A DNA stretch of 64,000 nucleotides from positions 1-64,000 of the forward strand of contig NZ_CAJYMD010000076.1 in assembly GCF_913776015.1 (NCBI RefSeq). The letters run 5' to 3'. The notes beneath the pieces were generated by a model. The model was not told where the DNA came from. It did not search any database and saw only the letters and a list, made by a program, of their open reading frames with translations. This document shows, piece after piece, positions 9,889-46,428 of the stretch. Every line of letters starts with the position of its first letter. Positions within the stretch are counted from its first letter, which is position 1. Source of the DNA: an uncultured Oxalicibacterium sp. (GTDB lineage Bacteria > Pseudomonadota > Gammaproteobacteria > Burkholderiales > Burkholderiaceae_D). Both the position numbers and the translations under genes were made by a program.

Positions 9889-10016
9889 CTTGTACACAGT
9901 CGCTGATGACATGTGCAAATCGGATCAGAAACGGGTGTGTTTGAGCACGTAGTGCGAGTTTCGCCCGTTTCCCGATTTGTACGCGTTATCAGCGGGAACC
10001 CGAAGGGCTGTGTACC
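9889..10016. repeat. Long imperfect hairpin in the gapA-glnE intergenic region
   Basis: The outer arms GTACACAG and CTGTGTAC enclose CGCTGATGACATGTGCAAATCGG and its imperfect complement. Inside those, GAAACGGGTG faces CGCCCGTTTC. Together they form a roughly 120-nt imperfect stem. There is no coding potential. Confidence 0.6.
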
Positions 10017-10017
10017 T

Positions 10018-10115
10018 GCGGTCGCCTTCTTTTGCTTACTTTTCTTGGCGAAGCAAGAAAAGTGAGTAGCCGCCGGGCTACCCCGGCAAGTCTCTTCGAA
10101 GAGCCGCTAACAATC
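10018..10115 (-). repeat. Palindromic intergenic repeat, inverted partial copy
   Basis: On the reverse strand this segment repeats the left end of the copy at 9453: GTAGCCCGGCGGCTACT, a hairpin with CTTTTCTTG / CAAGAAAAG arms around CTTCGC, then GGCGACCGC. The long right-hand hairpin of the full copies is absent. Confidence 0.7.
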
Positions 10116-18162: not shown

Positions 18163-19623
18163 ATGACGCCTTTCGAACCCAATCTCAAGACACTTGCCGT
18201 CGCTCGCGACATCCTGTTGACGCCATTCGGTCTCGACGAATCTGCGCTGGTCAAGACGCTCGGCACGATGTTTGCACATCGCGTGGATTATGCCGATCTG
18301 TATTTCCAGTTCACAAAGAGCGAAGGCTGGAGTCTGGAAGAAGGCATCGTCAAGACCGGCAGCTTTTCGATCGACCAAGGCGTCGGCGTGCGCGCGGTGT
18401 CGGGTGACAAAACGGCGTTTTCCTATTCGGACGAAATCTCGCAGCGTGCCCTGACCGAAGCTGCTTTGGCAACGCGCACGATTGCGCGACAAGGTGCGGG
18501 CAAGATCAAGGTTGCATCAGCTATTGAACCTGTTGGCGGCCGTTCGCTGTATTTGCCGCACGATCCGCTGACGTCACTCGATGCGACTGAAAAGGTCAAA
18601 CTGCTGGAGCGCGTCGAGCGTATCGCGCGTGCCAAGGATCCGCGTGTGGTGCAGGTGATGGCTGGATTGGCTGGCGAATACGATGTGGTGCTGGTCGCGC
18701 GTAGTGACGGCGTGCTGGCTGCCGACATTCGCCCGCTCGTGCGTCTGTCGATTACCGTGATCGCGGAACAGAATGGCCGCCGCGAGATGGGGTCCAGTGG
18801 CGGTGGCGGTCGTTACAGCTACGCCTACTTCAGTGACGAACTGCTGGAAAAATATGCAAGCGAAGCGGTCGCTTCGGCACTCGTGAATCTGGATGCGCGT
18901 CCGGCACCGGCAGGGCCGATGACGGTTGTGCTCGGCTCCGGCTGGCCAGGTGTGTTGTTGCATGAAGCGATCGGTCACGGTCTGGAAGGCGACTTCAATC
19001 GCAAGGGATCGAGTGCGTTCTCTGGCCGCATCGGCGAACGTGTGGCGGCCAAGGGCGTGACGGTGGTGGATGACGGCACGATTGCCGATCGCCGTGGTTC
19101 GCTCAACATCGATGATGAAGGCAATCCGACGCAGTGCACGACGCTGATCGAGGACGGCATCCTGAAAGGTTATATTCAGGACACTATGAATGCGCGTCTG
19201 ATGAAGATGCCTGTGACCGGCAATGCGCGCCGCGAATCGTATGCGCATTTGCCGATGCCACGCATGACGAACACCTACATGCTCGGTGGCGACAAGGAGC
19301 CGGAAGAAATCCTGGCTTCGGTCAAGAATGGCTTGTACGCGGTCAACTTCGGTGGCGGTCAGGTGGATATCACGAATGGCAAGTTCGTGTTCTCGGCCAG
19401 TGAAGCCTACATGATCGAAAACGGCAAAATCAGTTATCCGGTCAAGGGCGCGACGTTGATCGGTAACGGCCCGGATGCGCTGACGCGTGTTTCGATGATC
19501 GGCAACGACATGCGTCTCGACAGCGGTGTCGGCGTCTGCGGCAAGGAAGGGCAGAGTGTACCCGTCGGTGTTGGTCAGCCTACCTTGCGTATCGATGGCA
19601 TGACGGTCGGCGGTACGGCGTAA
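18163..19623 (+). CDS. tldD: TldD metalloprotease subunit
   Basis: A 486-residue TldD, which pairs with TldE/PmbA to form a zinc protease that degrades small unfolded peptides and matures some modified peptides. The zinc-binding helix is seen as [14 protein letters not shown] (HExxxH), followed by family blocks [16 protein letters not shown] and [24 protein letters not shown]. No tldE is present in the window; the two genes are often unlinked. No terminator follows the stop directly; the first one downstream is the hairpin in the aroG leader. Confidence 0.95.
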
Positions 19624-19763
19624 GCGATTCGTCAGGATTGTTGGCAAATCGCCTACTGCCGCACCGATTTGCCTGATATGCCACGCTTTTTCTCGGCTTT
19701 GCTTGCCAACCGACCTGATTTGCTGCACTATTGCCTTCACTTAACCGCTTTGACTGTAATGAC

Positions 19764-19835
19764 ATGACGTCCCTGCGCTTCGCTTTCTGGTTTTACTTTA
19801 GCTATTCCAACCCAATGGCGGTGGAGAAGCGGTAA
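19764..19835 (+). CDS. Aromatic-rich leader peptide upstream of aroG
   Basis: A 23-codon open frame (ATG to TAA) lies between tldD and aroG. Its residues 5-14 read RFAFWFYFSY: seven of the nine positions 6-14 are Phe, Trp or Tyr. It ends 36 nt before an intrinsic terminator and about 100 nt before aroG, the gene for the first step of aromatic amino acid synthesis. That is the arrangement of attenuator leader peptides such as those of pheA and trp. There is no clear Shine-Dalgarno sequence, and a minimal ATG-ACA-TGA frame overlaps its start, so translation efficiency is uncertain. The peptide is too short and too biased to be an ordinary protein. Confidence 0.75.
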   Translation: MTSLRFAFWFYFSYSNPMAVEKR

Positions 19836-19903
19836 GCGCGCAGTTAAACAAAAGCTAAACCGAAATTCTTGAAAAAACCGCCGTGATGGCGGTTTTTTCT
19901 TTT
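19773..19903 (+). promoter_or_regulatory. Putative transcription attenuator of aroG
   Basis: The terminator is a 12-bp perfect stem (19871-19882 with 19888-19899, loop GTGAT, six T residues). Its 5' arm contains ACCGCC, and GGCGGT occurs upstream at 19817-19822, inside the leader frame just after the aromatic codons. That copy could pair with the 5' arm to form an antiterminator. A further pairing is possible between CTGCGCTT (19773-19780) and AAGCGCGCAG (19834-19843). In the standard model, ribosomes stalled on Phe/Trp/Tyr codons leave GGCGGT free and transcription continues, whereas ribosomes reaching the stop cover it and the terminator forms. The helices are seen in sequence; the switching is inferred. 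The hairpin could instead simply be the tldD terminator. Confidence 0.65.
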
Positions 19904-19933
19904 GCAGAAACGATTTTTGACCGGAGAAAAACC

Positions 19934-21001
19934 ATGCCACGCACTGATGATTTACGGATTAAGGAAATGAAAGAACTGGTACCACCGTCGCATCTGATCC
20001 GCGAGCTTGGCTGCTCCGACAAGGCAGCCGAAACAGCGGCCAATGCGCGTACTGCACTGCACCGCATTCTGCACGGTCAGGACGATCGCTTGATGGTCGT
20101 GATCGGCCCTTGCTCGATTCACGATACCAAGGCTGCCATGGAATACGCGAATCGCCTGATCAAGGAGCGTGAGCGCTTTGCTGGCGAACTCGAAATCATC
20201 ATGCGCGTATATTTCGAGAAACCACGCACGACAGTCGGCTGGAAAGGCTTGATCAACGATCCTTTCCTGGATGGCAGTTTCCGTATCAACGAAGGCCTGC
20301 GTATCGCGCGTGAGTTGCTGCTGAACATCAATGAGCTTGGTTTGCCTGCCGGTACTGAATTCCTCGACGTGATCAGCCCACAATACATTGCTGACCTGAT
20401 TAGCTGGGGGGCTATCGGTGCCCGTACGACCGAATCGCAGGTACACCGCGAACTCGCTTCAGGACTGTCGTGCCCGGTCGGTTTCAAGAACGGTACGGAC
20501 GGCAACGTCAAGATTGCCGTCGATGCGATCAAGGCCGCATCGCAACCGCATCACTTCCTGTCCGTGACGAAGGGTGGTCATTCTGCCATCGTTTCGACGC
20601 TGGGTAACGAGGATTGCCATATCATCTTGCGCGGTGGCAAGGCACCGAACTACGATGCGGCGAGCGTTGAGCAAGCGTCGAAAGATATCGCTGCCAATGG
20701 CTTGGCAGCACGTTTGATGATTGATGCGTCGCATGCGAACAGCAGCAAGAAGCCGGAAAATCAGGTGCCAGTCTGCGCCGATATTGCCAAGCAGGTTGCC
20801 GCCGGTGACACGCGTATCGTCGGTGTGATGGTCGAATCGCATCTGGTGGCCGGTCGTCAGGATCTGATTCCAGGCAAGGAACTGACCTACGGGCAGTCGA
20901 TTACCGATGGCTGCATCAATTGGGAAGAAAGTTTGAGCGTGCTGGAAGGGCTGGCGGAAGCGGTCAAGCAGCGTCGCCATGTGAAGGACCCGGATGCGTG
21001 A
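19934..21001 (+). CDS. aroG: 3-deoxy-7-phosphoheptulonate (DAHP) synthase, class I
   Basis: First enzyme of the shikimate pathway, condensing phosphoenolpyruvate and erythrose-4-phosphate. The 355-residue length and the motifs VVIGPCSIHD, RVYFEKPRTTVGWKGLINDP, GARTTESQVHRELASGLSCPVGFKNGTDGN and DASHANSSKKP match the AroF/AroG/AroH group of feedback-inhibited enzymes; which amino acid inhibits it cannot be read from sequence. The ATG at 19934 has a GGAG ribosome-binding site about 9 nt upstream and gives the normal N-terminus MPRTDDLRIKEMKEL. It is preceded by the aromatic-rich leader peptide and attenuator and followed by an intrinsic terminator. Confidence 0.96.
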   Translation: MPRTDDLRIKEMKELVPPSHLIRELGCSDKAAETAANARTALHRILHGQDDRLMVVIGPCSIHDTKAAMEYANRLIKERERFAGELEIIMRVYFEKPRTTVGWKGLINDPFLDGSFRINEGLRIARELLLNINELGLPAGTEFLDVISPQYIADLISWGAIGARTTESQVHRELASGLSCPVGFKNGTDGNVKIAVDAIKAASQPHHFLSVTKGGHSAIVSTLGNEDCHIILRGGKAPNYDAASVEQASKDIAANGLAARLMIDASHANSSKKPENQVPVCADIAKQVAAGDTRIVGVMVESHLVAGRQDLIPGKELTYGQSITDGCINWEESLSVLEGLAEAVKQRRHVKDPDA

Positions 21002-21060: not shown

Positions 21061-21117
21061 TGTGGATTTGGAATGGTTTGTCTGATTTTTTGGTTGTGCA
21101 TTGCTTATTGCTGACGT

Positions 21118-21367
21118 TTCTTCGAAGAGACATGCTGGAGGTAGCCCGGCGGCTAGCTACTTTCTTTGCGTTCGCCCAAAAAGTGCGCAAAGAAAGGCGA
21201 CCGCACTGCCGCTGCCCCTGCGGGGTTTCCATTGAAGCGAAGGAAAAAATGGGAAGTGAGCGAAACGCGCACTACGTGCTCAGACAACGCTCACTTCTTG
21301 ATCCATTTTTCCTTAGCTTCTTCAATGGCATCGTCACAGCGGGGAACACCTAACCGGCTCGCCAGCG
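21118..21367 (+). repeat. Palindromic intergenic repeat, copy 2
   Basis: This is the second full copy of the element at 9453-9716. Shared blocks include GTAGCCCGGCGGCTA, GGCGACCGCACTGCCGCTGC and GGGAAGTGAGCGAAAC. As in copy 1, it lies about 60 nt past a terminator hairpin. Its long hairpin is kept although the arms differ in sequence: AAGCGAAGGAAAAA here faces TTTTTCCTTAGCTT, where copy 1 has AAGCAAAAGAGAAAA facing TTTTCTCTTTTGCTT. The first small hairpin is less perfect here. There is no credible gene. Confidence 0.8.
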
Positions 21368-46383: not shown

Positions 46384-46400
46384 TCGATTCCGCATCAACG

Positions 46401-46428
46401 AAAAACCGCCCCGTGGGGCGGTTTTTTC
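46401..46428 (+). terminator. Intrinsic terminator after the small lipoprotein gene
   Basis: The stem AAAAACCGCCC / GGGCGGTTTTT has a 4-nt loop and is followed by another T, 17 nt after the stop codon. It also has an A-run for the opposite strand, where a hybrid kinase ends at 46462. Confidence 0.9.

Follow-up and report, generated by a model that had tools for sequence, protein, structure and literature searches.

A putative ribosome-mediated attenuator with an aromatic leader peptide precedes aroG in many families of Burkholderiales

The aroG upstream region and its genomic setting

The region described here separates tldD from aroG in a 64,000-nucleotide stretch of DNA (hereafter the window, i.e., the whole stretch that was analyzed), and its features are collected in Table 1. 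The closest named aroG records are those of Oxalicibacterium and Herminiimonas, with 95% and 93% protein identity, respectively, which assigns the window to an Oxalobacteraceae genome. The leader peptide displays RFAFWFYFSY at residues 5-14, and an upstream in-frame TTG at 19731 would lengthen it to 34 codons. Inside the leader, GGCGGT at 19817-19822 constitutes a copy of the 3' arm of the terminator and can pair with ACCGCC at 19877-19882, while the terminator stem itself (GAAAAAACCGCC-GTGAT-GGCGGTTTTTTC) comprises 12 pairs and a loop of 5, with six Ts within the 3' arm. The 23-codon frame, the terminator, the GGCGGT/ACCGCC complementarity and aroG had been described in a first-pass annotation of this DNA, and all of them were confirmed in position. 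The locus displays features by which an attenuator is recognized, namely a frame rich in codons for products of the pathway, an intrinsic terminator before the gene, and a competing antiterminator strand. Directly downstream of aroG, an intergenic repeat of about 200 bases was observed at 21105-21365, with 12 matches in the genome including itself and further copies on the same contig at 9464-9682 (87% identity) and 9938-10102; it is possibly a dispersed palindromic element.

Table 1. Features of the tldD-aroG region, in window coordinates
Feature	Position	Strand	Basis or remarks
tldD, upstream neighbour outside the element	18163..19623	+	
Candidate promoter	19703..19731	+	TTGCCA 19703-19708, 17-base spacer, CACTAT 19726-19731
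Leader peptide frame, MTSLRFAFWFYFSYSNPMAVEKR	19764..19835	+	ATG at 19764, TAA 19833-19835, 23 codons
Putative sensor codons Phe6 Ala7 Phe8 Trp9 Phe10 Tyr11 Phe12 Ser13 Tyr14	19779..19805	+	
Predicted protector hairpin (1:2), which could close over GGCGGT if no ribosome is stalled	19801..19830	+	RNAalifold consensus, folds, permutation test
Putative antiterminator strand (segment 2), GGCGGTGGAGAAGCGG	19817..19832	+	GGCGG conservation, duplex with segment 3
Segment 3, AAACCGAAATTCTTGAAAAAACCGCC, predicted to pair with segment 2; its 3' end is the terminator 5' arm	19857..19882	+	pairing probability about 0.9 (ribosome stalled, 3' arm unmade)
Intrinsic terminator hairpin (3:4), then CTTTT	19871..19899	+	
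aroG, type I DAHP synthase	19934..21001	+	NCBIfam AroG equivalog

Matches to PF00793 in this genome corresponded to AroG and KdsA only, and PF01474 (type II DAHP synthase) gave no match, so that the element would control the sole DAHP synthase found. No match to TrpR (PF01371) was obtained in the genome, and a search for TyrR-type HTH domains (PF18024) returned one sub-threshold match (22.7 bits vs 27). When this genome was searched with a covariance model of the element, one strong match was obtained (1.6e-27, the next match being 0.26) and no second one of that kind. In the same search, a weak match to the terminator (3') portion was recorded on either strand at 46400-46427 (E of about 0.6-0.7), probably owing to an ordinary terminator that acts in both directions. 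No terminator was called in the stretches ahead of pheA and two chorismate-binding enzymes of this genome (first 1500 bases of L262, L263 and L264). The best frame there, a 27-residue ATG frame with 4 Trp (MSSPDKKRFATPGTHEAWLWRRWQFWC), was found at L263 (contig C53) about 106-190 bases before a trpE-like start codon; it ends 106 bases before that start and is followed by a T run, with no terminator called. This frame is a possible separate trp leader peptide, and raises the possibility that tryptophan is sensed at its own operon.

Occurrence of the leader and the terminator among relatives

Three sets of loci were read. The first consisted of 80 named aroG loci, mostly from Oxalobacteraceae and Burkholderiaceae. 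For the second, a Burkholderiales-wide sample in which 115/150 genomes matched, 110 loci from 97 genomes were read, the window included (30 loci plus 80 fetched stretches, weaker matches being left out); for the third, a class-wide sample with matches in 137/185 genomes, 68 loci from 68 genomes were read, omitting L202, which is near a contig end. A leader was called in 78 of the 80 named loci, 75 of them with a CCGCC terminator and 3 with another terminator arm, and the remaining two displayed either a CCGCC terminator without a leader or neither feature; once a CCGTC arm was also allowed, leader plus terminator were present in 77/80. The comparison proposed in the first-pass annotation was thus borne out, since relatives retain the aromatic codons along with the hairpin. 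Order-wide, both features were called at 28 loci, the leader only at 9, the terminator only at 3, and neither at 70, the two features thus tending to occur together. After removal of one spurious call (L187), leader and terminator were found in 27/110 loci (among them the window), which belong to 12 of 32 families, and 83/110 loci lacked the combination under the strict call. Class-wide, both features were displayed by 2 loci and neither by 64; the other 2 had only a frame resembling a chance one, so that 66/68 lacked the element. The two positive loci (L193 and L195) belong to a single family outside the order (f63) and are the only class-wide loci with the full element, for which either a sister lineage or horizontal transfer may be proposed. 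In the five cases where two aroG-like copies of one genome were read and one had the element, it was always the copy closer to the AroG studied here (5/5). Among 60 genomes of the family, 46 matched the covariance model at 6e-14 or below, 6 more weakly (down to 0.007) and 8 not at all, a count that may include the genomes used for model building, which match by construction; in the four genomes whose positions were compared (G000, G007, G056 and G141), the element lies directly before aroG.

Chance expectation was assessed with dinucleotide shuffles. When the 300 bases before aroG were shuffled, 3/5000 of the resulting sequences contained a frame with 7 or more aromatic residues in 10, and 8% contained one with 5 or more; since such chance frames do arise, the peptide alone is only suggestive, and it is conservation that settles the matter. 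The full anatomy (a leader with at least 5 aromatic residues in 10 and a terminator downstream) was obtained in 0/2580 shuffles covering all 258 regions, as compared with 78/80, 28/110 (L187, later judged spurious, among them) and 2/68 real loci. Comparison of the loci thereby establishes the anatomy and its conservation.

The analyses below were carried out on 106 leaders, comprising 77 named, 27 order-wide (including the window) and 2 class-wide loci, whose upstream sequences are all different and encode 88 distinct peptides, although the named and sampled genomes may overlap; Fisher tests count related genomes as independent, and are accordingly descriptive only. Thirteen loci with a leader call were left out of this set: one with a variant terminator arm (L049); five with no terminator called (L135, L140, L146, L169 and L170), in four of which (L135, L140, L169 and L170) inspection by eye shows a terminator whose loop is long or imperfect; one whose arm was unmatched by the pattern (L165); one unmatched and also set aside by hand (L156); the spurious L187, removed by hand; and four without a terminator that are probably chance frames (L177, L179, L200 and L226). 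Conversely, a terminator without a leader call was recorded at L051 (frame of 48 codons, the limit being 45), L147, L151 (4 aromatic in 10) and L152.

Conserved codons and predicted competing RNA structures

The 106 leaders carry 5-9 aromatic residues within 10, and their 788 aromatic codons comprise 479 Phe, 245 Tyr and 64 Trp. Within the block, the aromatic fraction amounts to 0.80 in frame vs 0.27 and 0.20 in the other two frames, a comparison that holds partly by construction, because the block was chosen in frame. Beyond this block, GGCGG occurs 5-17 bases downstream in 104/106 leaders, as compared with 186/2780 random 25-base windows taken from leader-negative regions, and it is read in frame 2 in 91 leaders, frame 0 in 7 and frame 1 in 6. 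Its presence in all three reading frames indicates that this part is conserved as RNA, the aromatic part being conserved as codons.

The leader begins with ATG in 105/106 cases (ATG was preferred when choosing frames), and this codon is invariant in fixed-stretch alignments that were not cut at the ATG, both in the 19/19 Oxalobacteraceae-type and in the 15/15 Burkholderia-type rows. Shine-Dalgarno-like sites ahead of the leaders are poor: AGGA, GGAG or GAGG lies within 20 bases before 6/106 of them, a 3-base match before 41, and none before 59. As for transcription, a CTTGCCAA box is almost invariant across the Oxalobacteraceae-type alignment, and TTGTCA/TTGCCA and TATAAA boxes are found ahead of the leader at Burkholderia-type loci; a loose promoter pattern was satisfied in only 56/106 leaders, and a consensus promoter scan found no promoter. 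From these boxes, it is likely that the aroG leader has its own promoter.

Specific complementarity between the two strands of the putative antiterminator was likewise established by comparison. Little covariation was detected by RNAalifold within the Oxalobacteraceae-type loci (1/19 pairs), and cross-family permutation tests were therefore used. Native duplexes between segments 2 and 3 were stronger than those obtained by swapping strands among 13 family groups (sum of -299.5, the permutations averaging -269.3 with an sd of 7.5), and 1/20000 permutations was as strong as the native arrangement; within the Oxalobacteraceae-type loci alone, the largest group and half of the set, swap specificity was almost nil (-0.08 and -0.69 kcal/mol). 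The protector hairpin, located at consensus columns 50-79, was the sole RNAalifold consensus hairpin beyond the terminator; it was predicted in folds of 17 loci, gave 236/20000 in the permutation test, and is weak in 28/106 leaders. Although more weakly supported than the other pairings, this predicted 1:2 hairpin would complete the classical set of structures.

Stalling was modeled by assuming a ribosome footprint of 13 bases that begins with the A-site codon. In the window, with the 3' arm of the terminator still unmade, the probability of the antiterminator was 0.03 without a stalled ribosome and rose to 0.89-0.92 when one was placed at Phe6, Phe8, Trp9, Phe10, Tyr11, Phe12 or Tyr14, while a ribosome at Ser15 partly masked GGCGGT and one at Val20 or the stop codon masked it fully. 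In complete transcripts of the window, the equilibrium fold was the terminator in every ribosome state, so that the switch must be kinetic, decided during transcription. Among the 106 leaders, stalling raised the antiterminator probability in all, with 78 crossing 0.5; in the other 28, the unstalled value was already at least 0.5 (group means of 0.56 for the Burkholderia-type and 0.85 for family f3). In 13/106 leaders, where the protector is weak, stalling shifted the probability by 0.05 or less.

Probable attenuation of aroG and the amino acids that may be sensed

We consider it very probable that the element attenuates the transcription of aroG through a ribosome translating an aromatic leader peptide. 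Attenuation of aroG had been put forward in the first-pass annotation, and comparison strongly supports it through the conserved anatomy, codons and pairing strands, as well as the linkage to aroG. Our inferences as to leader translation and ribosome stalling, as well as to the sense of the switch and the relevant amino acids, are as follows. RNA polymerase would initiate slightly upstream of the leader; with charged tRNA-Phe and tRNA-Tyr plentiful, the ribosome would reach the leader stop codon and cover segment 2, the terminator would form, and transcription would end near 19900. Under scarcity of charged tRNA-Phe or tRNA-Tyr (possibly tRNA-Trp), the ribosome would stall at the aromatic codons, the protector hairpin would not form, and segment 2 (GGCGGT...) would pair with ACCGCC before the 3' arm exists; with the antiterminator formed, transcription would continue into aroG.

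Linkage to aroG was also confirmed when the fetched flanks were searched by tblastn, and bears on a reading in which the hairpin would simply end tldD transcription and the leader frame would have arisen by chance. Such a reading would suit a gene located upstream on the same strand as well as the quality of the hairpin as a terminator; however, tldD was found in 55/78 leader-positive named loci and was absent in 23 (in one of which, L041, the flank extends over only 190 bases), and 7/14 order-wide leader-positive loci with 1500 bases of flank also lacked it. Conversely, at 19 loci tldD is within reach with no leader call, L051 among them retaining the terminator. Also among these 19, two Oxalobacteraceae loci with identical upstream sequence (L016 and L085) have aroG within about 40 bases of tldD and no attenuator, which we read as loss of the element. 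Since leader and terminator persist without tldD, and tldD occurs without the leader, the element is not a plain tldD terminator, and in the compared sequences it travels with aroG, not with tldD; with the aromatic codons and the pairing strands conserved as well, the plain terminator was rejected and the chance frame is hardly credible. A riboswitch or T-box-like RNA, governing the terminator without a translated leader, would likewise account for a structured leader ending in a terminator, but aromatic codons recur across families and no Rfam family was found at threshold in 10 relatives or in positions 19500-20100 of the window, which leaves it extremely improbable. Somewhat less remote, yet still quite improbable, is a functional small hydrophobic peptide, or a leader RNA or peptide acting in trans, with attenuation being secondary: the strong conservation of the aromatic part would agree with it, and a trans role has been reported for the leader peptide peTrpL, according to the available excerpts of that work (PMC7298713), whereas the RNA motif persists even where the reading frame of the C-terminal part differs (frame 0 or 1 in 13/104), as suits a role of the RNA in cis.

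Within attenuation by the leader peptide, the sensing of all three charged-tRNA pools at once, as the first-pass annotation had it, is not supported as stated: Phe and Tyr codons are general, but Trp is present in only 58/106 leaders (11/53 of the Oxalobacteraceae-type and 29/29 of the Burkholderia-type). Judging from codon positions, three-pool sensing is possible in the window, where Trp9 lies 29 bases before GGCGGT and Tyr14 14 bases before it, a borderline distance, and more so in Burkholderia-type leaders. The attenuator could instead sense phenylalanine alone, or a general slowing of translation, the Tyr and Trp codons being incidental. Phe codons are indeed the commonest, and the leader of Corynebacterium glutamicum aroR contains Phe-Tyr-Phe, yet the availability of Phe, and not that of Tyr, is reported to matter for aroF in the available excerpts of a review (PMC11802643). 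Against this, Tyr occurs in 104/106 peptides and, in 103/106 leaders, at a distance of 14 bases or more ahead of GGCGG; among the usable aromatic codons, the one closest to GGCGG encodes Phe in 49 leaders, Tyr in 35 and Trp in 22. We regard a response to Phe alone or to slowed translation as a doubtful, though serious, candidate. Our own suggestion, equally tentative, is that one leader might integrate the charging of tRNA-Phe and tRNA-Tyr and, in the window and Burkholderia-type loci, of tRNA-Trp, gating the sole DAHP synthase as an order-wide RNA substitute for the feedback-specific isozymes and the TyrR and TrpR repressors of E. coli; how much each amino acid counts would then be adjusted by the choice of codons and by their spacing from segment 2.

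Several known systems resemble this putative attenuator. In the pheL-pheA attenuator, a Phe-rich leader is combined with a protector, an antiterminator and a terminator, and positions 19500-20100 of the window gave as their best Rfam match Phe_leader (RF01859), aligned end to end at 26.8 bits; against the gathering score of 55 bits, membership in that family was rejected. Unlike pheL, which governs pheA, the present element precedes aroG and has Tyr and sometimes Trp codons added. The trpL-trpEDCBA leader of E. coli operates with the 1:2, 2:3 and 3:4 pairing logic that is also proposed for the present element, which differs from it in codons and target, and Trp_leader is absent among the 16 Rfam matches listed for the window stretch. 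Control of the E. coli trp leader by charged tRNA is described in the accessible excerpts of a review (PMC11802643). A DAHP synthase gene is also the target in aroR-aroF of C. glutamicum, where, according to the excerpts available (PMC11802643, PMC4046766), a Phe-Tyr-Phe-bearing leader peptide lies ahead of it and ribosome stalling is reported to increase transcription when Phe is limiting; the element described here, from another phylum, has 5-9 aromatics in 10, being Phe and Tyr and sometimes Trp, and occurs in many families of one order. In Acholeplasma, uORFC-13-1 similarly corresponds to a predicted Phe-coding uORF with a terminator before the DAHP synthase gene aroF, and is described in the available part of the source as a prediction only, restricted to Acholeplasma and environmental sequences, with 24 representatives and at least 1 Phe codon (PMC8632094). 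Predicted attenuators have further been tabulated for Gammaproteobacteria, before a DAHP synthase gene of Vibrio (PMC1173090, Table 7) and, as 'Attenuator sensing tyr-tRNA', for aroF of Shewanella (PMC2659441, Table 3); the leader peptide sequence is absent from the portions of those descriptions available.

According to the first-pass annotation, such an arrangement is not known to have been described for betaproteobacterial aroG, and among the matches listed in open-licence literature, represented in part by excerpts, no account of this element at that gene was found; the word aroG is also absent from the main text of a Burkholderia cenocepacia transcription-start paper. Novelty in the wider sense does not hold, as control of this type has been published for a DAHP synthase gene of C. 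glutamicum, in the excerpts cited above. What the comparison points to is a classical attenuation mechanism at an unusual target, the entry of the pathway, widespread in families of Burkholderiales, and no new principle.

On the basis of sequence comparison, many Burkholderiales families seem to gate the first committed aromatic step through the translation of a short peptide. From E. coli, this step is usually described as controlled by repressors and by feedback-specific isozymes. If this reading is true, the element would constitute a naturally occurring device that senses more than one amino acid and lends itself to codon-by-codon testing, and a candidate new RNA family for annotation, being short and below every Rfam threshold in the scanned stretches; it would also provide a handle for engineering aromatic production in Burkholderiales.
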